A stretch of DNA of 25,070 nt from assembly GCA_943704525.1 (NCBI GenBank), contig CALSCQ010001805.1, forward strand, positions 1 to 25,070, written 5' to 3'. The position numbers and the translations under genes are program-made. The DNA comes from Pigoraptor vietnamica (Eukaryota > Opisthokonta > Filasterea). Of the stretch, positions 2,528 through 21,813 are shown one piece after another. Position 1 is the stretch's first letter. Every line of letters begins with the position of its first letter. The notes beneath the pieces are model-generated. The model had not been told where the DNA came from. It saw only the letters and a program-made list of their open reading frames with translations, and ran no database searches.

Positions 2528-2810
2528 TCAAGCCAGCCATTTCAGACACCTGCGGGGCAACGCATATCATCACAAACTGCTGCTGATATTATAATATAAA
2601 GTCAAACTACTACGCACTCACCTAGTTTCCCGATGAGTGCCATGGCATCGTTCGCTGCAATACTTAGAGCCGCACAAAGTGCAGCAATAACTGGATACGA
2701 ACGTTTGTTCAAGTTAAGAAAACTGAGATGTGCATGTGTGTGTAAGTGTGTGTGCACGTGTTCGTGTGCGTGATGGTGAGAAAGCCGCAGTCATAAGGTG
2801 AGCGAGAGAG

Positions 2811-2900
<90 letters not shown>

Positions 2901-3020
2901 AGTGTGTTCTTTTTGTGTGTATGTGTACACGTGTATGTGTGTGGGTGGGTGTGCCGTAGTGTGGTTTTCTTTTTGTGCGTGTGTGTGCGCGCGCGTAGTG
3001 TGGTATTCTTGTGTGTGTGT

Positions 3021-3088
<68 letters not shown>

Positions 3089-3573
3089 GTGACGGTGTCG
3101 TGTCTGCGCGGAAAACGGCGGATATCCACAAACGCTGCAGAAGCGTCGATCGGGAAATCTGGACGGCATAGCTTTCGCAGTGAAATAATTCGTCTCACTT
3201 CCAGTAGTTTCGGAGTGTGCCTCCTGTAGAATAACCTCCACAGATTTCTTCTGGCCTCGTTTCCGGATCCCACGGCCGTCCTTTTTCCGCTTCTTCTTAG
3301 CACCTGATAAATTGCACACAGTGTCAACACTAATAAATAATATCGACCTGCGTTGCCCTTGACTCTACCTTCTTCATCCATTACTTGTACCGCGCTAGGT
3401 CCGTCGAATGTTGGGTGGGGCTCGTCTTGAAAGTTGTCCAGTTCGAGCGCATCCAGCTGCCGCTTTTGCCGGCGCTGCCGCACAAACGTGTCTGCGATGC
3501 CATGGCTTGGACGTGCCCGTGCGAGGCGCGATGTATCTTTAAGACCCGCGGGCGTTCCTGTAGAGCTTTCCAT
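2528..3573 (-). CDS. ZNHIT1: ZNHIT1, HIT zinc-finger subunit of the SWR1/SRCAP complex
   Basis: Homologue of ZNHIT1 (yeast Vps71/Swc6), a subunit of the SWR1/SRCAP remodeller that deposits histone H2A.Z. Exons in transcript order are 3573-3369, 3303-3117, 2690-2622 and 2549-2528. Phases match and the product is 160 residues, close to human ZNHIT1 (154). The conserved N-terminal block reads [17 protein letters not shown]. It is followed by a basic KKKRKK stretch and [20 protein letters not shown]. The HIT finger spans intron 2: FCSVCGYPP joins [19 protein letters not shown], and the last exon adds the end of RETRCLKWLA before TGA. The ATG at 3573 is preferred; an upstream in-frame GTG is not a plausible eukaryotic start. 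Intron 2 (2691-3116, 426 nt) is much longer than the other introns because it is full of microsatellites. Confidence 0.93.
2813..2869. repeat. (GA)n microsatellite inside a ZNHIT1 intron
   Basis: About 57 bp of GA repeat, read as a polypyrimidine (TC)n run on the ZNHIT1 sense strand. It joins directly onto a GT run, forming a compound microsatellite in intron 2. Confidence 0.97.
2869..2893. repeat. (GT)n microsatellite
   Basis: About 24 bp of GT repeat continuing directly from the (GA)n tract; (AC)n on the ZNHIT1 sense strand. Confidence 0.95.
2891..3010. repeat. Degenerate minisatellite between the GT tracts
   Basis: Three related units start near 2891, 2951 and 2987. Each has the pattern GTG, a CG-rich step, CGTAGTGTG, then a T-rich step and GTG. 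They look like decayed tandem copies of a unit of about 36-60 bp that has grown between the two GT tracts. Confidence 0.6.
3011..3090. repeat. (GT)n microsatellite
   Basis: About 80 bp of nearly pure GT repeat with two single-base interruptions, ending about 25 bp before the intron-2 donor of ZNHIT1 on the minus strand. Confidence 0.97.
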
Positions 3574-5028: not shown

Positions 5029-5932
5029 ATGCTGTCGTCGACGGTTTTGCGCGCGCGCGGCGCCGTCGTTGCAGTCGGCGCTTTGGCGCGCGCCAAGCAC
5101 ACGCTGCCTGACCTGCCCTACGACTACAATGCCCTCGAGCCCACCATCAGCGCTGAGATTATGCGCATTCACCACGACAAGCACCACCGCGCGTACGTCA
5201 CGAACCTCAACATTGCCGAGGAGAAGCTGAACGAGGCCATTGCGAAGAACGACGTCTCGGGCATTGTCGCTGTTCAGTCGGCCTACAAGTTCAATGGCGG
5301 CGGACACCTCAACCACTCGATCTTCTGGAAGAACCTGTCGCCGACGAGCAAGGAAGGCGGGAAGCCCCCCACCGGTGGGCCTCAGACTCTAGTTGGCGTT
5401 GGTGTGCGCCCATGTCTCACTGCCCACATGCAGGAGACTTCGCCAAGGCACTCAACGCCGAGTTTGGGTCGCTCGAGTCCTTCATCGAGAAGTTCAATGC
5501 CGCCGCAGTGGCTGTGCAGGGCTCTGGCTGGGGATGGCTTGTGGGTACAGGGGCCTGGTAATCGACTATGCGTGCACGCGTGCGTTCGAGGGGGGAAGCT
5601 CGTGAGTGTTATAGGGCTGTGCGGTTGTCTGAGGACTATCTTCGCAGGGTTACGACAAGGCCAAGAAGCGCCTCGTCATTGCAGCGTGCGCCAACCAAGA
5701 CCCCCTCGAGGGCACGACGGGTGCGTGCGTGCTCGATCGTCTGCTAATCGGCGCCGTCTCTGACAACTTGAAATTTGCAGGCCTCGTGCCGCTCCTCGGG
5801 ATTGACGTGTGGGAGCACGCTTACTATCTCCAGTACAAGAACGTGCGGCCTGATTATCTCAAGGCTGTCTGGAATGTGGTCAACTGGTCTGATGTGGCCG
5901 AGCGCTTCAAGAATGCCTCCGGTGGCAAGTAA
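5029..5932 (+). CDS. SOD2: SOD2, mitochondrial manganese superoxide dismutase
   Basis: Converts superoxide to hydrogen peroxide and oxygen in the mitochondrial matrix. Exons are 5029-5374, 5434-5540, 5648-5720 and 5781-5932, with matching phases; the product is 225 residues. The first ~27 residues ([20 protein letters not shown] and onward) are basic and hydroxylated without acids, as in a targeting peptide. The mature part begins [16 protein letters not shown]. Metal ligands are visible in [23 protein letters not shown] and [26 protein letters not shown] matches Mn enzymes rather than Fe enzymes. The C-terminus is [14 protein letters not shown]. The stop lies 45 bp from the convergent ORC2 stop. 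Confidence 0.96.
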
Positions 5933-8058: not shown

Positions 8059-10293
8059 ATGTCGCTGCGGGGGCCGCGTGAGGACGCTTGGCAGCCGCCG
8101 GCGGATAAGGGGCGCGCACAGACGGAAGCACTCTCGGCGGGGCACGGACACGGGCAGAGTCCGGCCGATGAGCGCGAGAGGGGTGCGCGAATCTCGACTG
8201 AGTCGTCTGCCGCGAGTTCCAGCGCTCCTCGGCCTGCTTCCGCATCTGTCGCAGACCGCGCCTATTCCGGCGGACGAAGCAGCCGTGATCGCCATGCGCA
8301 CACGTACTTCCCAGTCGCTTATGGTGGCCCCGTTCTCCCATTCGTTGGGGTTGCGCGCACGGGCTTTGAACATGCGGAGGCCCATTTGAGTGCGGCAGAC
8401 ATGCTGTATGCCGAGCATGTCGCACACCCCTTTGCCCTCGGCTATCCCTTGACGGTGCATCCGGCCTTCCACAGTGCGGACGGAGCGAGCGCTCGAGCCC
8501 TTGGCGTGCCGGATTGGGGTTCTGCACCGCTGGCGGGAGATTCGTTATCGGTTGTTGCGGGTGTGCCGGCTGGTGGCGTGCCTATCTGCCGATACTTTCA
8601 GCAGGGCTATTGCCGTCACGGCGATCGTTGCAACTTTTCGCACGCCGACTCGGTGAATGCCGACATTACGGGACCTGGAGACAATGCGCACACGCGGGGG
8701 GCAAAAGCTTCGGCGACGCAAGGCCACTCACGCGGTCATCAGCGTCGAACAAATGGGGACGGTGGGTGCTGCGCGCAGAGCGCACCATTTTCGCGACGTC
8801 GCTCACATGGGAGGTCAGCAGGGATGCGGTATACTTCCCTCGAGCAAGTGACCGGCAAGATATATGCGCTCTGCAAGGACCAGCACGGCTGCCGATTTCT
8901 CCAGCGCAAACTCGAGGAGCAGAGTGAGCGGGCAGTGCAGGCGGTCTTTGACGAGGTCTTGGAGCACATGGTCGAGTTGATGTCCGGTGGGTTGAACGGC
9001 CGCTGCGGCATGCAAACGGTGCAACGACGTCATGCTGACACCAAGTTCGCAGACCCCTTTGGCAACTACCTCTGCCAGAAGCTCATCGAGCTCTGTAACG
9101 ACGATCAACGAACCGCAATTGTGTGTGTGGCTGCACCAGAGATCGTGTCAATCGCCATGAACATGCACGGGACGCGCTCGGCACAACGAATGATCGAGTG
9201 CCTGACATTGCCGCTGCAGGTGGAGGCGCGTTTATGTCGCATGGGGGCCCGAGTGCGCCGACAGCAGAAGGGGTTGTGTCTGACGCAGAATGCGCGCAGG
9301 TGGCGCAGGTGGTATCGGCCTTGAGGGGGAGCGTGGTGCCCCTCATCAAGGACCTGAATGGCAACCACGTCGTCCAGCGGTGTCTGCAGCACTTTTCGGC
9401 CGAAGACGCGCAGGTGCGTGCAACTTGTGCACGTGGGGGCATTTGATGCGCCGACTGAGCTCGTCCTCGCAGTTCATATACGACGCCGTCGCCAGCCACT
9501 GCATCGAGGTGTCGACGCACCGGCACGGCTGCTGCGTCATGCAGCGCTGCATTGATCACGCAACGGAGGCTCAGAAGGTGATCCGCGCGTGGTGTGCCAA
9601 TGTGCCCGTCCCTCGAAATTCGCTAACTGCCGCCTGCGCATTGTAGGCTCAGCTTGTGTCGGAGATTACTGTGAACGGGCTGACGCTGGTGCAGGTGGGT
9701 ATCACCTCTCCTTGACCTTACGGGTGGGTACATGCTGACCCTGCGCTGTACATTCAGGACCCGTTCGGTAACTACGTCGTACAATACGTTCTCGAGCTCA
9801 AAAATCCGTGTTTTTCGGATGCGCTGATCAAGCGCTTCGTGGGGAACGTCGGTCTCTTGGCGGCTCAGAAATTCAGCTCGAACGTGATGGAGAAGGTTGG
9901 TTACGGGCGTCTCTTTGCTGCATTGGACCACGCACGCTTTTCTGACCGCGACACAGTGCCTTCGGGTGGCGGAGGGTGACACGCGCAGGCAGCTGCTTGA
10001 CGAGGTCGTGGAGGCCTCGTGGCTGCCGCGTTTACTCCAAGATCCGTATGGGAATTACGTCATACAAACGGCACTCGCCATGTGCGATGCGGCCCAGTTT
10101 GCCACGGTACGTGTCGGTGCGCCTTCGCCACCACCGGGTCTGACTGTCGCTTACGTTCAGTGTCTAAACTCCGCAGCTCGTCGAGAGCATTCGGCCGCAC
10201 CTCAACCTTATTCGACACACCCCGTATGGGAAGAAAATCGAGGCTAAGCTAAACACCGTAAGCAAGTGGCACCTTAAGAAAGGGGGGGAATGA
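8059..10293 (+). CDS. CCCH zinc-finger Pumilio (PUF) RNA-binding protein
   Basis: A cytoplasmic mRNA-binding regulator of 588 residues. Exons are 8059-8986, 9053-9219, 9300-9413, 9473-9577, 9647-9694, 9758-9895, 9957-10106 and 10177-10293; all phases agree. A low-complexity N-terminus leads to a CCCH finger near residues 177-195 (CRYFQQGYCRHGDRCNFSH, C-x7-C-x5-C-x3-H). The Pumilio domain covers about 258-575 with eight repeats. Their RNA-contact motifs, R1 to R8, are CRFLQ, NYLCQ, TRSAQ, NHVVQ, CCVMQ, NYVVQ, SNVME and NYVIQ. With the known PUF code this predicts a UGUAUNUA-type target, as for Pumilio/Puf3. The first intron (66 nt) is in frame, and splicing it restores the repeat-2 helix VELMSDPFGNYLCQKL. 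The third acceptor is ambiguous by 9 nt. Confidence 0.92.
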
Positions 10294-13406: not shown

Positions 13407-14976
13407 TCACAACCCCAGGCCGAGCCTGTCTTCCCACGTCGTCAAGAACCGAGCAATCATTTCGTAGGCAGTGAAAGTGATGGCGCCGGAGGGTGTTACG
13501 CGCAGCAAGTTCGTGCCCATTCCGCGGTAGAATGCTCGGGGCCCTTCTTCCCGCCATACCACTGCCGCACAATGCAGCAACCCGCGGTATTTCGGTGGAG
13601 AACTAGTTTGGTTTTGCAGTCGTGTTCGCACAACCTGCGCGAAATGAATTGCACATGAAACAGCGAGACTACGTGGCACAACACTCGTCACAGAGTAGTT
13701 GCACGGCAACATTCCACACATTCCCACAGGCACATTTGACAAGGGACCGAAGAACACTGGAACATGGGCAAAACAGGCAAAGATCACCAACCTCATGCGG
13801 GTACCAACAGATGCTTGCCACGGCCTTGGAAGCCGACGATGCAATCATAATGTCTACGGGACCCAGTGGGGCCGACGGGTCGCTTTCTGGGGCATGCGCT
13901 GCGATGAGAACAACTGGAGGGCGCATCGCCGAACAGCACGTTCATCCATCACCCACTTTGATGCTGGATGATGTCCTTGAGGCGCTCGTACAGCGGAATC
14001 TGAATGCCGACATGCACCACGCCCAAAAGCGACGGCGCGAGTCCCTTGTAGAAACCCGCGACGCCTTCCTCGCGCAGAATGCGGCCAAACGCAGTCCGAA
14101 TGCTCGGGTAGCCCGCAGGCCCAATGGGATTGAGCTACGATTCAAAAGATAGGTGAGCCACTCACTGCGGACGCCGAAACGACAGCACATACCATCATTC
14201 TAGTCTTGATGACCCAGAGAGGATTCGTCGCGAGCGAGCAGACGGCACCCGCTGACATCGCGGAGACGCAGTGAAGGAGCGGGTTCTTTTCAGATAACCC
14301 TGCAGCGACAATATCAGAGCCAGCAACTGCTGTCAACAGGGCGGAAGTGGACGCACCGTAATAATGGCCAATGTGGTGCTTGAGTTCGTCGTAGGCCACA
14401 AAGTATATCGCCCAGTTCGGCAGTAGCCCAAGAAGCGTGGGACTCAGGCCACGGTATAGGGAGCGCGCGCCCTCGTGACGCAAAATTTGGCGGATGGTAC
14501 CTAATGAATAGGAGGGCTCTTGTCAGTACAAGGGCACGGAATGGCGCACAACCGCCGCACTCACCGGTCATGCCCTTGTACCGAACATCTGCAGTCTGGC
14601 GGGAAAGAGGGGCGGGGGAGAGGTGGGTTCGACTCTTTAAATTCGATTGAGCACAGCAGACACATTCGATTGCGCGCACCTGCAGTCGCGTCTTGACGAC
14701 GTCGAGAGGGCATGTCACAACAGAAGCAATGGCGCCCGCGCCCGCCCCAGAAAGAATGTGCACAAGGGGTCGCGGACGATCGTCCCTGCCAGACAACGAA
14801 GGGCCCGCGTCAGTCAACCAGGTAACCAAACACCACGCGGGGCAAAAACCATACCGTGGCTCTGCATTGCGCGCTCTTCTGGGTTCGCGGACCACTTCGG
14901 CCGGCACGATCGGCGAGTGGCCACCGACGTCGCCCAGCGCGGAAAGGGAACCTCTCCCGTCCAACAAGCGTAGCAT
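13407..14976 (-). CDS. Mitochondrial carrier, NAD+ transporter-like (YIA6/NDT type, SLC25)
   Basis: Six-helix inner-membrane carrier of 355 residues. Exons in transcript order are 14976-14855, 14785-14680, 14595-14565, 14500-14193, 14134-13957, 13886-13792 and 13634-13407; phases agree. The three carrier signatures are CPLDVVKTRLQ, NPLWVIKTRMM and YPHEVVRTRLQ. Trp in place of the acidic residue in repeat 2 is typical of the yeast YIA6/YEA6, FLX1 and RIM2 and SLC25A32 branch. GLLPNWAIYFVAYDELK, GLAPSLLGVVHVGIQIPLYE and ASSASKAVASICWYPHE resemble yeast YIA6 most, so NAD+ (or a related nucleotide or folate) is the likely substrate. The exact substrate is inference. The last intron (157 nt) is longer than usual. 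Confidence 0.87.
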
Positions 14977-15336: not shown

Positions 15337-18300
15337 ATGAGTTTTCGACGGGACAGCGGGGCCCCGCGGCTCGATGACTTCAAGCGGGCAGCCTACGTGG
15401 CGCGCTACGATCCCGTCCGCCAGCACCTCAACAAGTACGCAAAGAAGGTGGGTTGTGTGGTGCGACAGCCCTGGCGAAAGGCTCGCTCTTATGCACTGGC
15501 CGCCTCGCAGTACATTCCCAGCGAAGGGTTGACGAACAAAGGCCTCGCCGCGCTCACGTACTCGCTGCTGGAGTACCAGGAGGAGCGCTTTGGGCGCGGT
15601 GCCGCCGCCCCCGCCCAGACGAAGGTGCCCGCGAAGCTGTTCACGGACTTCTCGTCGGGTGGAGGGCTTTGCGTCATTCTCTCGACCGCCCTGCGCTTTC
15701 GCCACGAGCACAACCTTCCGTCGCTGGACCTGCAGGGGAAGGGCGCCGACCAGTTTGTGCGGCTGTTCAAGGAGATTGAGAACGCGGTCCAGGACGCGAA
15801 GCTGTACTCGTTTCCGCGCGTCTTCCTTTCGCCGTCTGTGGCTGCGGACGTCAAGCGTCTCACCGAGATTGTGAGGCGTCACGGAGGCGCCGTTGTTCGC
15901 GACAAGGCTGCGGCGACCCATATTGTGCATGCCTCTCCGCCAGCTGAAGACGGTGCGTCCTCTGTTTGTACTCATCTACAGTGTTCTGTACTTGTTATCT
16001 TATAGCCCGCAATGCGATGCATGACAGGGGAGGAGGAATACTTTCGGGCCATCGACTCGGCGGGCGACCATGTCCTTGTCCACTTCTGGTACCTGCCGGA
16101 CAGCTACGACGTCTGGGTGCCCCAGTCGGAGGTTGCGAGCGAACCGGAGCCTGCGCCGACGCACTCCGGTGCCTGGAATGTTGGCGCGAGGTGGATAGAG
16201 GACACGGACAAGTTTAACGAGTGGATGAACGAGGAAGATTACGAGGTCGGCGAGGACGGTGCCGCGCCTGCAGATGCAGATGTCGATGGCGAGCGCAGCT
16301 CTGGCAAGGGTCGCGCGAGTCGTGTCCCCAAAAAGGGCGGAAAGGCGGCGTCGGAAGCAGAGCGATCGTCGAAACGGGCGCGTCGTTCCGAGTCCCCGGA
16401 GCTGGAGCGCAGTTCGAAGCGTGCGAAGACGGAAGAGAAATTGAAGGAGCCCACCGAGAAGCCAGCCGAGGTCCCGGCGGTGCCGCACGTGAAGCGGACG
16501 TCCGTGGACTCCATCGTGCTGTCCAACAAGCCCTCCAACCCGGAAACGGCTCCTATCAAGGGCGGCATTGTGTTGAACATCTCGAATGCCACCAGTGCGC
16601 CGATCGATTCGGACGCCGACAAGGCGCGTGCGCAAGTGCCTCCAGACACGCCGATGGCGGATGCGGATGGCGCCGCGGCGGAGGCAGGTGCAGCAAAGGA
16701 GGGCGGCGCGCAAGAGGCGGAGGAGGCGGAGGACGTGGAGGGCGAGGACGTTCTCGCCCACCAGACGCACGCGATTGTGGTGCCAAGCCACGCCGCGTGG
16801 TTTGACTACAACGCCATCCACCACATCGAGAAGCGCGCTCTCCCCGAGTTTTTCAACGGCAAGAACAGGTCGAAGACGCCCGAGATTTACACGGCGTATC
16901 GGAATTTCATGATCGACGCGCACCGCCTGAACCCGACAGAGTATCTCACGGCCACGGCGTGCCGTCGCAATCTGGCCGGCGACGTGTGCGCAATTGTCCG
17001 CGTGCACGCGTTTCTGGAGCAGTGGGGGCTCATCAACTACCAGGTTGATCCGGAGACGCGCCCTTCGCCGATGGGGCCGCCGTCTACGAGCCACTTTGCG
17101 GTCACGTATGATACGCCATTGGGTCTACGCCCTGCCATTGCGCCGGTCGTGGCGCAGGCGGGAGGTCAGAGCCTCACGTGGACGGATGGACGGCGAGCCT
17201 CGTCGTCGGCCACCGCAGGCCAGCTGCTGTTTCAGCCGCAGCCCTCGGTAAAAGCGCCCGCGCAGCCGGGGAAAGCGCCGGCCCCCGGGCAGGCGTCGCC
17301 TGCATCCTGCTCTTCGTGCGGCGGGCAGTGTGGGAGTGGACACTACAAGTCTGCTGACTATACCCTGTGTGCGGCGTGCTATCTGCAAGGTGGGCTGTAT
17401 GCTGCGCTGAATGTGACTGCTCCGTTTGCACTGAATGTGACTGTTCCGGCTGACTATTCGTTGATCCTCTTGGTTGCAGGACGATTCCCGGTCGATCGGC
17501 AGAGTTCAGACTTCTCCAAAGTTGGCGCGTCGGACGACGGCCGGGCGGATTGGACTGACGCCGAAACTCTCCGCCTTCTTGAGGTGCGCGCCGGCCTGTT
17601 GTTGTTTTCACGTGCCTGGATGGGTCTGACGCTGTGTCTGCAGGCTGTCGAGACGCACAAGGACGACTGGAACAAAGTCGCGGATTATGTTGGATCGCGC
17701 ACGCAGGAGGAGTGCATCCTTCGCTTTCTCCGCATGCCCATCGAAGACCCTTTTCTCGAGCATGACGGCGGCGCCGGTGGGTCGCGTGCTGCGCTGTTCG
17801 TTTGTGTGCAGGTCATTGATTTATGGCTTTCTCATTATATATTGCACGCGGCCACAGCTCTCGAGAGCAGCATGCCGATCCCGTTCAGCAAGGCAAACAA
17901 TCCGCTCATGTCGACAATAGCGTTCCTGGCGTCTGCTGTCGAGCCTGCAGTTGCGGCTGCGGCAGCCAAGGCCGCGCTAGGTGAGCGCGATTCCGTCTTA
18001 TCCCGCATGTTGCTCATTCCTGTGTGCATGTCTGACATTTGACAAACGTGCAGACGCATTCTTCGGCGATTCGCCAGCGGACGTGTCCGAGGGGAAGCCC
18101 ATTGCCGCGTCGAAAGACGAGCCCCCCAAGGCAGAGTCCTCGGAAGGGCCTGTTCCGATGGAGGTAGATTCGGCCGAGAAGCACGTCGCTGCCGAGGGAG
18201 CGGATAGCGCGCCAGGCGCGAAGACGGAAGTGACGGAGCAGGTGTGTATTGGTGCCATGTTTCCTCGCATCCACGCGGGGCGCTAACCCCCGCTTAGGAG

Positions 18301-18925: not shown

Positions 18926-18933
18926 GTGTAATG
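18926..18933. repeat. Left 8-bp target-site duplication (GTGTAATG)
   Basis: GTGTAATG directly abuts the left terminal inverted repeat and is repeated exactly at 21806-21813. An 8-bp duplication with central TA matches the Buster-type hAT preference (nnnTAnnn). Confidence 0.85.
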
Positions 18934-18946
18934 CAGGGGCACTAAA
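18934..18946. repeat. Left terminal inverted repeat
   Basis: CAGGGGCACTAAA, identical to the reverse complement of 21793-21805. Similarity beyond 13 bp is weak. Confidence 0.85.
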
Positions 18947-19081
18947 GTCGATTCGCGCTGAGAATACCCAAAAGTTGGATATGATAAAAGTATGCGAATT
19001 CTCGGCCGATTTTCGTCATTCCAACGACGCTGGGAAGCCAATTGAAGAACAAAGTTATCTTCGCAGCAAGCCAGCCTATCC

Positions 19082-20596
19082 TCATTCTTTGACACGAAAC
19101 GGACTCCTGAAGTGGAAAAAGTGGGAAAACGGTGGCGATTTTGGACACCTTTTGCGCAGATCACCAGCAAAATATTTACTTAATGAAGGTTTTGGTTTCA
19201 CATCACGCATCACGCATCCACTTCCATCTCCACGCACGGCGCTCTCGTCGTCATCGAAGTAGTCATAGTCGTAGTCGTCATCCGAGTCGTCTCCTATCGG
19301 AATGACAACGCGCTGGTGGAGCCAGTCCGTTTCCAGCTCGCGGCGGCTGATGTTGTCATGTTCAATCCAACGTTGCTCCTGCCCCTCGCTGAACTTGAAG
19401 CACCGCGCCCACGTCTCCGCCGTCACGCGCTCGAAGCCTTCGAGAGTGAGCCGCTCAACCTCGCTGAGAGTGAGCTTGCGGTTGTTCTTGGCGACGTACG
19501 TCTTGACCGACCGCCAAATGGGCTCGATAGGGTTGAGCTCGCAGTGGGTAGGTGGGAGGCGGACGACGATCATGTCCTTCTCCCGCGCCATCTCGTCGAT
19601 CACGTGGCGAACTGGGGTGCATCTTGTCCCTGCTCGAGCTTTCAGTTGCGGGATGGTATCTTTCTCGCCGAAAGGGATGTTCCGCGCTCGTAGCCATGCC
19701 TGAATTTCGTGCTTGCGCAGGCTGGACTTGAGTGGGCCTGTTCCGGCGATGCGCTCGCAGTGGTAGGGGGCGTTGTCGGCGATAATTATCGAGCGCGGCG
19801 GACACTTGGAGAGGAAGTGGGCCCAAATCTCCTTGAACTTTGTCATGTTCATGCTGCCGTCGGTGTGGTAGTCGCCCTTGCTCTTGCGCGACTTGAAGAT
19901 GTAGTGCCCGCCCGCCACAAAACCGTCCTTCGTCCCGCCATGGAAGATGATGAGACGTGCTCCCTTCCCTTCCTTCTGGTGCACTGGACCACCGACGACT
20001 TTCCCGTCGATAACACGAGCGAGAACCTTGGGGCGGCGCAAATTCGCATTCACCCACGTCTCGTCAACCGAGACAATGGGTCGGTCAGGCTCGGTGCGGC
20101 GAAGGTACGCAATCTTGGTGAGGTACTCGTAACGCAGGCGCTTGAGTCGGGCGTCTCGAGTCTTGTTTGGCCTCTTGTCGGGCGGGAGTTGCTTGAAGTT
20201 CATGTTGATGAGCTCCTTGTAGAAACGAGTGCGCCCGCACGGAAAGCCCTGCTCCTTCATCTTTCCGTACACGTCGCCAATCGTCGGGTTGTAGTCGTCG
20301 TCGTTGAATGCCTTGATAGCCGCCAAAATTCGCTCGTGCCAGGCACTGAGGTCGACGCCGCGCATTGTCGAGTGGTAGCGTGTCGTGGGGGGGGGGGGGA
20401 CGGTCCCTCCATTGCGGTTAATGAGAGTTAGAAACCTTCGAGCGGTGTGTTCGCTGAGTTTGCAGAGTTTTGCTGCCGCGTGTGTGGGATTGCGGACACC
20501 ATCATTCTTGAGACGCATATAATGGTGAAGGAAAAGCTCCTTTACAGCAACAGGAACGGCGCATCCGCGCGCCATTTCTGTGCGTTTCACACGCAT
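19082..20596 (-). CDS. DDE_3 (IS630/Tc1/mariner-like) transposase
   Basis: Intact 504-residue transposase without introns. An N-terminal helix-turn-helix region (NPTHAAAKLCKLSEHTARRF) should bind the element's ends. The catalytic triad reads as D178 (IVSVDETWVN), D274 (IIIADNAPYHCE) and E358 (PPTHCELNPIEPIWRSVK). By my count 95 residues separate the two aspartates and 83 separate D274 from E358, far above the 34 of Tc1. A spacer of this kind (KHEIQAWLRARNIPF) occurs in DDE_3 proteins common in arthropods and cnidarians; the DD82E Sailor group may be the closest named family. An acidic stretch (DDSDDDYDYDYFDDD) precedes a tail of about 45 residues. A G12 homopolymer near 20388 encodes PPPP. 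Met-8 is an alternative start. Confidence 0.93.
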   Translation of the reverse strand: MRVKRTEMARGCAVPVAVKELFLHHYMRLKNDGVRNPTHAAAKLCKLSEHTARRFLTLINRNGGTVPPPPTTRYHSTMRGVDLSAWHERILAAIKAFNDDDYNPTIGDVYGKMKEQGFPCGRTRFYKELINMNFKQLPPDKRPNKTRDARLKRLRYEYLTKIAYLRRTEPDRPIVSVDETWVNANLRRPKVLARVIDGKVVGGPVHQKEGKGARLIIFHGGTKDGFVAGGHYIFKSRKSKGDYHTDGSMNMTKFKEIWAHFLSKCPPRSIIIADNAPYHCERIAGTGPLKSSLRKHEIQAWLRARNIPFGEKDTIPQLKARAGTRCTPVRHVIDEMAREKDMIVVRLPPTHCELNPIEPIWRSVKTYVAKNNRKLTLSEVERLTLEGFERVTAETWARCFKFSEGQEQRWIEHDNISRRELETDWLHQRVVIPIGDDSDDDYDYDYFDDDESAVRGDGSGCVMRDVKPKPSLSKYFAGDLRKRCPKSPPFSHFFHFRSPFRVKE

Positions 20597-21792
20597 TTAT
20601 TTGTGAAATGAAGCTTTGTATCCTCTCGAGTTGCCCAGTGATGTGGCACCGACCAGCGTTAGATTCGGCGGGCGCCGGCGCCGGTTTGCGCGGTTAGGCA
20701 CATCCAGTCGGTTCAAAAAAAGGCGCGCAACCCGGAAAAAAAGGAAGCTTCTTATTGGTTCTCACTTTTATGTACTATTCCTCGAGGTTCACCGGTTGTT
20801 GGGAGCGCGACGCCTCGCAACGGTCGTGCACGTTGTGCGAGCATGCACGTGGAAAGTGATGTATTTTTAGCGATTTCCTTAGCAACACTATGATCTGATT
20901 GTAACATCCATGGTAACCGAATACAATCAATAAGTCATTCTTCCCACTTCGTCTTTGAGGACTCGCCCCTCCACCAAAACGCAACCCGAGTATCTTATCT
21001 ATAGAAATTGATTTTGATATGTCTTACACACCATCCGGGGTGGCAATTTGGGATTTGGGATCACCACCAATCACTTAGCTATGAAAATTTGGCCCGGCGA
21101 ATTTGCGAACAGTGCGCTTTCATTTCTGGCCGAAAAACGCATTTCCGCACGGTCTAATTACCATGAAAGGATATTTCAACTCTCCTACAAGAGCCTTTGT
21201 TAGTATCTGGACATGGTCCGAGTACGACAAAATCAGTTAACCCCACGAGGGGCGAACTATAAACAAAGAAATTTTAGTATGACAAAGTATCGGATGTACC
21301 TCAAGTTTGAAGGCTTCGTGCTCACGATCAGGCCATTTCCGCACGAAATGCCGCCAGAACAGCCTGCTACCACTCCTTATGTGTCTTATAACGAGCATCG
21401 CGTTCACAAAAAGCCACGACAAAATTCGGAAACCTTGGTCAGGAAATAGGTACTCTAACCCTCACCAATAGTTATATTCTCTAACTGTGATCGGCCGGTG
21501 TAGTGTCGCTCACATTTTCCATTAGAAACAATGCAGCGCCCGGCCCATAAATGCCTTGTTAGGGTTGGTAGTGATCGCACATCCACATACAACGCACTTC
21601 TTCTGAGTATTGAGTGCAATAATTTGCGGAAGCTGGTCTAACGAAGTAACACAAGCGGACAGTCCGGTCTCTGAAATAAGGGCGTTTGGAATTACTGATG
21701 CCCAAATATGGTAATTACGTTCTGTAACCTATGTGTCCAAGCATCCGGGGTGAAAATGTAAGACATCGTTTATAGTTTCCAGCCCCGTCTAT
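20597..21792. other. Non-coding right half of the transposon
   Basis: About 1.2 kb inside the element, upstream of the transposase start. It contains direct repeats ATCCGGGGTG (21033-21042 and 21743-21752), an inverted pair ATGTCTTACA (21019-21028) and TGTAAGACAT (21757-21766), and a repeated CATTTCCGCACG near 21137 and 21327. A 78-residue ORF at 21213-21449 has no recognisable family and is probably chance. These repeats may be subterminal transposase-binding sites, or the edges of a small nested element. Confidence 0.5.
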
Positions 21793-21805
21793 TTTAGTGC
21801 CCCTG
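21793..21805. repeat. Right terminal inverted repeat
   Basis: TTTAGTGCCCCTG, the exact reverse complement of the left terminus at 18934-18946. Confidence 0.85.
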
Positions 21806-21813
21806 GTGTAATG
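21806..21813. repeat. Right 8-bp target-site duplication (GTGTAATG)
   Basis: Exact copy, same orientation, of 18926-18933, directly abutting the right terminal repeat. Confidence 0.85.

Follow-up and report, generated by a model that had tools for sequence, protein, structure and literature searches.

The locus

The window that we analyzed is a stretch of 25,070 nucleotides from the filasterean Pigoraptor vietnamica. Eukaryotic host genes lie at 5029-5763, 8059-9324, 13407-14483, and 16012-18042; their products comprise an Fe/Mn superoxide dismutase, a protein that combines a CCCH zinc finger with Pumilio repeats, pieces of a mitochondrial carrier, and a SMARCC-like SWIRM/Myb protein, and their domains are split across reading frames, apparently because introns interrupt them. 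Long tracts of (GA)n and (GT)n lie at 2800-3108. A mobile element of 2872 bp (18934-21805; GC 0.518 vs 0.569 for the window) follows, apparently about 70 bp past the end of a gene, possibly the upstream SWIRM/Myb gene (its stop was read by eye). This one element joins hAT-type ends and a hAT-type target-site scar with an intact transposase gene of the Sailor type.

The element is bounded by perfect 13-bp terminal inverted repeats (TIRs), CAGGGGCACTAAA, at 18934-18946 (plus strand) and 21793-21805 (minus strand); directly outside them are two identical copies of an 8-bp sequence, GTGTAATG (GTG-TA-ATG), at 18926-18933 and 21806-21813, which we take as the target-site duplication (TSD). An earlier note on this DNA had placed both the repeats and the duplication at these positions and had likened them to hAT, and they stand as described: an 8-bp TSD with a short TIR is what has been published for hAT elements. 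The TIR stretches to 18 bp if 2 mismatches are allowed, and the exact 13-mer occurs in the window at two places, both of them element ends, with a single further match at 2 mismatches. When one base is added per side the direct repeat becomes 10 bp long, GGTGTAATGC; we prefer the 8-bp parse because it leaves perfect TIRs. Outside the transposase gene, the element consists of a left part 3' of the gene (18947-19081) and a right part 5' of it (20597-21792), with GC contents of 0.466 over the 148 bp of 18934-19081 and 0.462 over 20597-21805. The right part also holds a direct repeat, CATCCGGGGTG, at 21032-21047 and 21742-21757, and an inverted repeat of 10 bp, ATGTCTTACA (21019-21028 and 21757-21766), which might reflect a small rearrangement or chance. 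Subterminal 6- to 8-mers of the element yielded nothing notable.

How much weight the boundaries can bear depends on how often such an arrangement arises by accident. Among 1361 inverted 9-mer pairs lying 100 to 10,000 bases apart in the window, flanks identical at 8 of 8 positions were found for the element's pair only, and one other pair reached 7 of 8. When the window was Markov-shuffled 40 times, 2 shuffles also contained one or more 9-bp inverted pairs with matching 8-bp flanks, so that weaker form would be unsafe by itself; the actual repeat is perfect over 13 bp and should be some 4^4 times rarer. The outer TIR alone has a local-alignment score of 14, against a mean of 7.7 and a largest value of 14.5 in its own shuffles, so its weight comes from its placement exactly at both ends beside an exact repeat.

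A Sailor-type transposase gene

An intact open reading frame (ORF) of 504 amino acids with no apparent intron runs along the minus strand at 19082-20596. As the earlier note had reported, the catalytic residues D178, D274, and E358 are all present, and Pfam DDE_3 is matched at E=2.9e-7, over residues 332-374 only, at the end of that domain; NCBIfam IS630 is also matched at E=3e-12, though at 46.6 bits this is below the cut-off of 100. D274 and E358 are separated by 83 residues, which gives a DD83E signature. An acidic tail at about residues 437-452 is common to the relatives described below and is followed by roughly 50 extra residues. The GC3 of the ORF (0.695) lies inside the range of 0.56 to 0.85 spanned by five hand-picked host coding stretches, so the gene is not compositionally foreign. 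The AlphaFold model of the protein is poor (mean pLDDT 45.1), and a PDB sequence search returned two lines, with E values of 0.61 and 0.83, both unrelated. The same note had called this the only long ORF of the element. It is indeed the longest, but six further ORFs of 100-240 amino acids overlap the element, and each of them lies across either the transposase ORF or the element's left end; none has a Pfam match above the cut-off, and the one line returned stood at E=0.12.

The Sailor group is characterized in PMC8533490 by a DD78-111E signature, mostly DD82E with DD83E frequent, by the motifs I/VVYLDET, VIIMDNA, and HCELNPIEL, by transposases of 323-676 amino acids in elements of 1379-6979 bp, by a duplication that is predominantly TATA, and by TIRs that usually begin GT and CC and measure 23-57 bp in most species; two species of Amoebozoa are counted there among its hosts. 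The spacing of 83, the protein length, and the element length of the window all fall within this description, and the corresponding motifs, IVSVDET, IIIADNA, and HCELNPIEP, are near to those of Sailor without being letter-perfect. In its 8-bp duplication the element departs from the published Sailor pattern, as it does in its TIR, which begins CA rather than GT or CC and is perfect over only 13 bp.

Two relatives argue for the same placement. A scan of prokaryote genome contigs for the motif HC[DE]LNPIE found 7 loci, among which one (L004) is a full relative, with 33% identity to the window transposase over 270 amino acids (E=3e-32); another (L007) gave a 69-residue match (E=2e-4), and the other 5 gave nothing below E=0.01. 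MAFFT aligned the L004 protein end to end with the window transposase, acidic tail included, at 30% identity. Its contig, a short one deposited with a mussel-symbiont assembly, is probably mussel host DNA in a bacterial record. The second relative (L010), from a genome drawn from the same class, is 28% identical over 430 amino acids (E=2.6e-37), and its last motif reads HPELQPIE. All three proteins share the spacing of 83. Both relatives lie in elements with recognizable ends: the L004 element (49-2382) has 114-bp repeat arms that are 81% identical, and the L010 element (1-1409) has 22-bp arms, with a TATA that begins one base beyond the right arm; the contig starts at the left end of this element and so provides no left flank. 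No second copy of the L010 element was found in genome G186, where its end pattern occurred no more often than did the control (14 and 13 vs 7 and 14).

In a six-row tree, the Sailor-type rows split from three IS630-type proteins with support of 100/100; here L004 and L010 are called Sailor-type from their motifs, the tree holds no labelled Sailor, Tc1, mariner, or pogo rows, two of the IS630-type rows are close kin, and P0001 was flagged for its unlike letter make-up. This tree omits L032 and L035, which were wrong ORFs, and an eight-row tree that included both did not group the Sailor-type rows.

Judged by its motifs, its spacing, and its similarity to L004 and L010, the window transposase is of the Sailor type. 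The earlier note had taken it for a Tc1/mariner transposase from a group that duplicates TA; the DD83E spacing, the VDET, ADNA, and HCELNPIE motifs, and the two relatives point to Sailor instead, and the scar to be expected is therefore TATA, not TA.

Genome searches returned matches in 2 of 7 genomes and then in 2 of 369, 1 of 83, 1 of 3, and 1 of 398, the last four counts each including the centre genome itself. Viral contigs yielded no relative in a search with P0001 or with alignments A1 and A2, no instance of the HC[DE]LNPIE motif, and no instance of the 18-base end pattern, a pattern that could miss relatives because it demands 18 matching bases. A tblastn search of plasmids and phages likewise found no relative.

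hAT-type ends with no hAT domain found

The outer features of the element invite comparison with a single branch of hAT. Members of hAT are described as having an 8-bp TSD, TIRs of 5-27 bp, and a length under 4 kb (PMC3517528), a limit within which the 2872-bp element falls. The Buster TSD consensus is nnnTAnnn (PMC3517528, PMC3499496), the ends of Buster2, CAGGGGTGGCCAACCT, start CAGGGG (PMC4298943), and those of Mar read CAG(G/A)GGTAGGC (PMC3517528). The duplication in the window, GTG-TA-ATG, fits this consensus of the branch that includes Buster2, Mar, and TcBuster, as judged from one copy, and the short TIR starts CAGGGG, which is one of the Mar forms. Unlike Buster elements, however, the element has no detected hAT domain and carries a transposase of another superfamily. 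We found no hAT domain in the transposase ORF, in the six further ORFs of at least 100 amino acids, or in 11 right-part ORFs of 54-87 amino acids (among the 14 longest stop-to-stop ORFs); the scan of these 11 gave a single line, for a zinc finger (E=0.35), which did not reach the cut-off. Bacterial promoter and tRNA scans were uninformative.

Partial counterparts occur in protists. The hAT-5 elements and hAT MITEs of Acanthamoeba and pandoraviruses share with the window element an 8-bp TSD, short TIRs, and a protist setting (PMC6004678), although hAT-5 is placed in the Ac family and has a 10-bp TIR, and the MITEs, unlike the window element, have no coding capacity. The Submariner elements of Acanthamoeba (Tc1/mariner) provide a protist precedent for an ITm transposase, but they make TA duplications (PMC4495683), unlike the element described here.

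No inner pair of ends stood out around the gene. Gapped local alignment of 18952-19330 against 20560-21787 gave no inverted repeat above chance: the best match scores 11, the shuffle mean is 12.4, and 89% of 500 shuffles reach the same score. In a scan for TA-bounded pairs round the ORF, the best of 994 pairs agreed at 14/25 bases. Apart from the TIR, the right part (20597-21792) matches the left part in inverted orientation no better than chance.

Competing readings of the element

We favor, with about even confidence, the reading that this is a non-autonomous, Buster-like hAT-type element carrying a Sailor-type gene that lacks its own ends. The outer unit would be a Buster-like element without a hAT transposase, and a hAT transposase acting in trans, encoded elsewhere in the genome, would have placed it here by making cuts staggered by 8 bp round the central TA of the target. 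The Sailor-type gene would be a passenger, either captured or left as the remnant of a Sailor insertion whose ends were deleted or decayed. TSD length, TSD pattern, and end sequence all fit the one hAT branch, and Sailor elements in print show predominantly TATA duplications and TIRs that usually begin GT and CC (PMC8533490); the relative L010, with TATA one base past its right arm, agrees with them. There are documented hAT MITEs that have no transposase themselves (PMC6004678, PMC3517528), and in Acanthamoeba and pandoraviruses hAT machinery is described as being lent to transposase-less elements (PMC6004678). Against this, no Sailor ends are detectable round the ORF (a score of 11 against the shuffle mean of 12.4), the ORF has stayed intact and kept its catalytic residues where a passenger should decay, and a single gene with a single pair of ends is more simply explained if the two form one unit.

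That simplicity is the strength of a second reading, possible but less probable in our judgment, in which a Sailor lineage has acquired new ends. The transposase would bind CAGGGGCACTAAA and cut three bases either side of TA, leaving 8-bp duplications rather than TATA, and the hAT look would be convergent. A single inverted-repeat pair stands at the element limits, together with a single transposase ORF and no trace of other machinery, and the ORF is intact and aligns collinearly with the two Sailor-type proteins along almost its whole length. A shift in TSD length has been reported inside another transposase group, IS481EU (PMC10045372). It has to contend, however, with the agreement of three end features with Buster, with the single copy known, and with the general rule that ITm elements generate TA (PMC10045372) and Sailor predominantly TATA (PMC8533490). 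Among the matches listed in a search of the open-access literature (titles and abstract openings), no ITm element leaving an 8-bp scar appeared, which likewise argues for the passenger gene in a hAT-type carrier. Nor did the matches listed from that literature include any account of hAT-type ends enclosing a Sailor-type transposase, although an 8-bp Sailor member could already be on record. The TA at the exact center of the scar, which counts toward new ends, does not discriminate between the two readings because ITm enzymes seek TA too, and one with a longer stagger would also be expected to leave it there. The weights that we give these two readings are judgments, not computed odds, and with one copy only the two cannot be told apart.

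A third reading, which we consider unlikely, places a recent and complete Sailor element, with its own TIRs and TATA scar, inside 18947-21792 of a hAT element. Transposons commonly nest, and the ORF is intact. The absence of inner ends above chance round the ORF makes such an insertion improbable, however, and the repeat finder readily reported the arms of both L010 (22 bp) and L004 (114 bp). The inner-end scans thus largely refute a nested Sailor with recognizable ends, and any nested version requires either that the inner ends were lost or decayed or that the gene was captured without them. The earlier note had offered two explanations, a transposase lineage with new termini or an insertion into a non-autonomous hAT element with hidden ends; both remain, although a nested Sailor with ends that can still be recognized was not seen. 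Finally, it is very improbable that a Tc1/mariner-like element inserted at TA with the remainder of the 8-bp repeat arising by chance: the duplication does contain TA, but eight flanking bases must then match by accident, the two ends fail to pair over their first three bases (as the earlier note had observed on forcing a TA site), and the spacing is DD83E, not the DD34-41 of Tc1/mariner (PMC8533490).

We keep gene and element apart in naming them. The gene itself is labelled Sailor-type, and the element is assigned neither to Sailor, because its duplication is not TATA and its TIRs do not start as those of Sailor do, nor to the autonomous hAT elements, because no hAT transposase was found.

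Implications for transposon classification

The length of a target-site duplication is usually taken as fixed by the geometry of the transposase family. If a Sailor enzyme makes the 8-bp scar, this fixed-length rule no longer holds in a transposon group that is among the most widespread, and the assignment of elements to superfamilies from their ends and scars fails. If instead the Sailor-type gene is a passenger, as we favor, then a hAT-type element carries a foreign transposase gene and is possibly spreading it.
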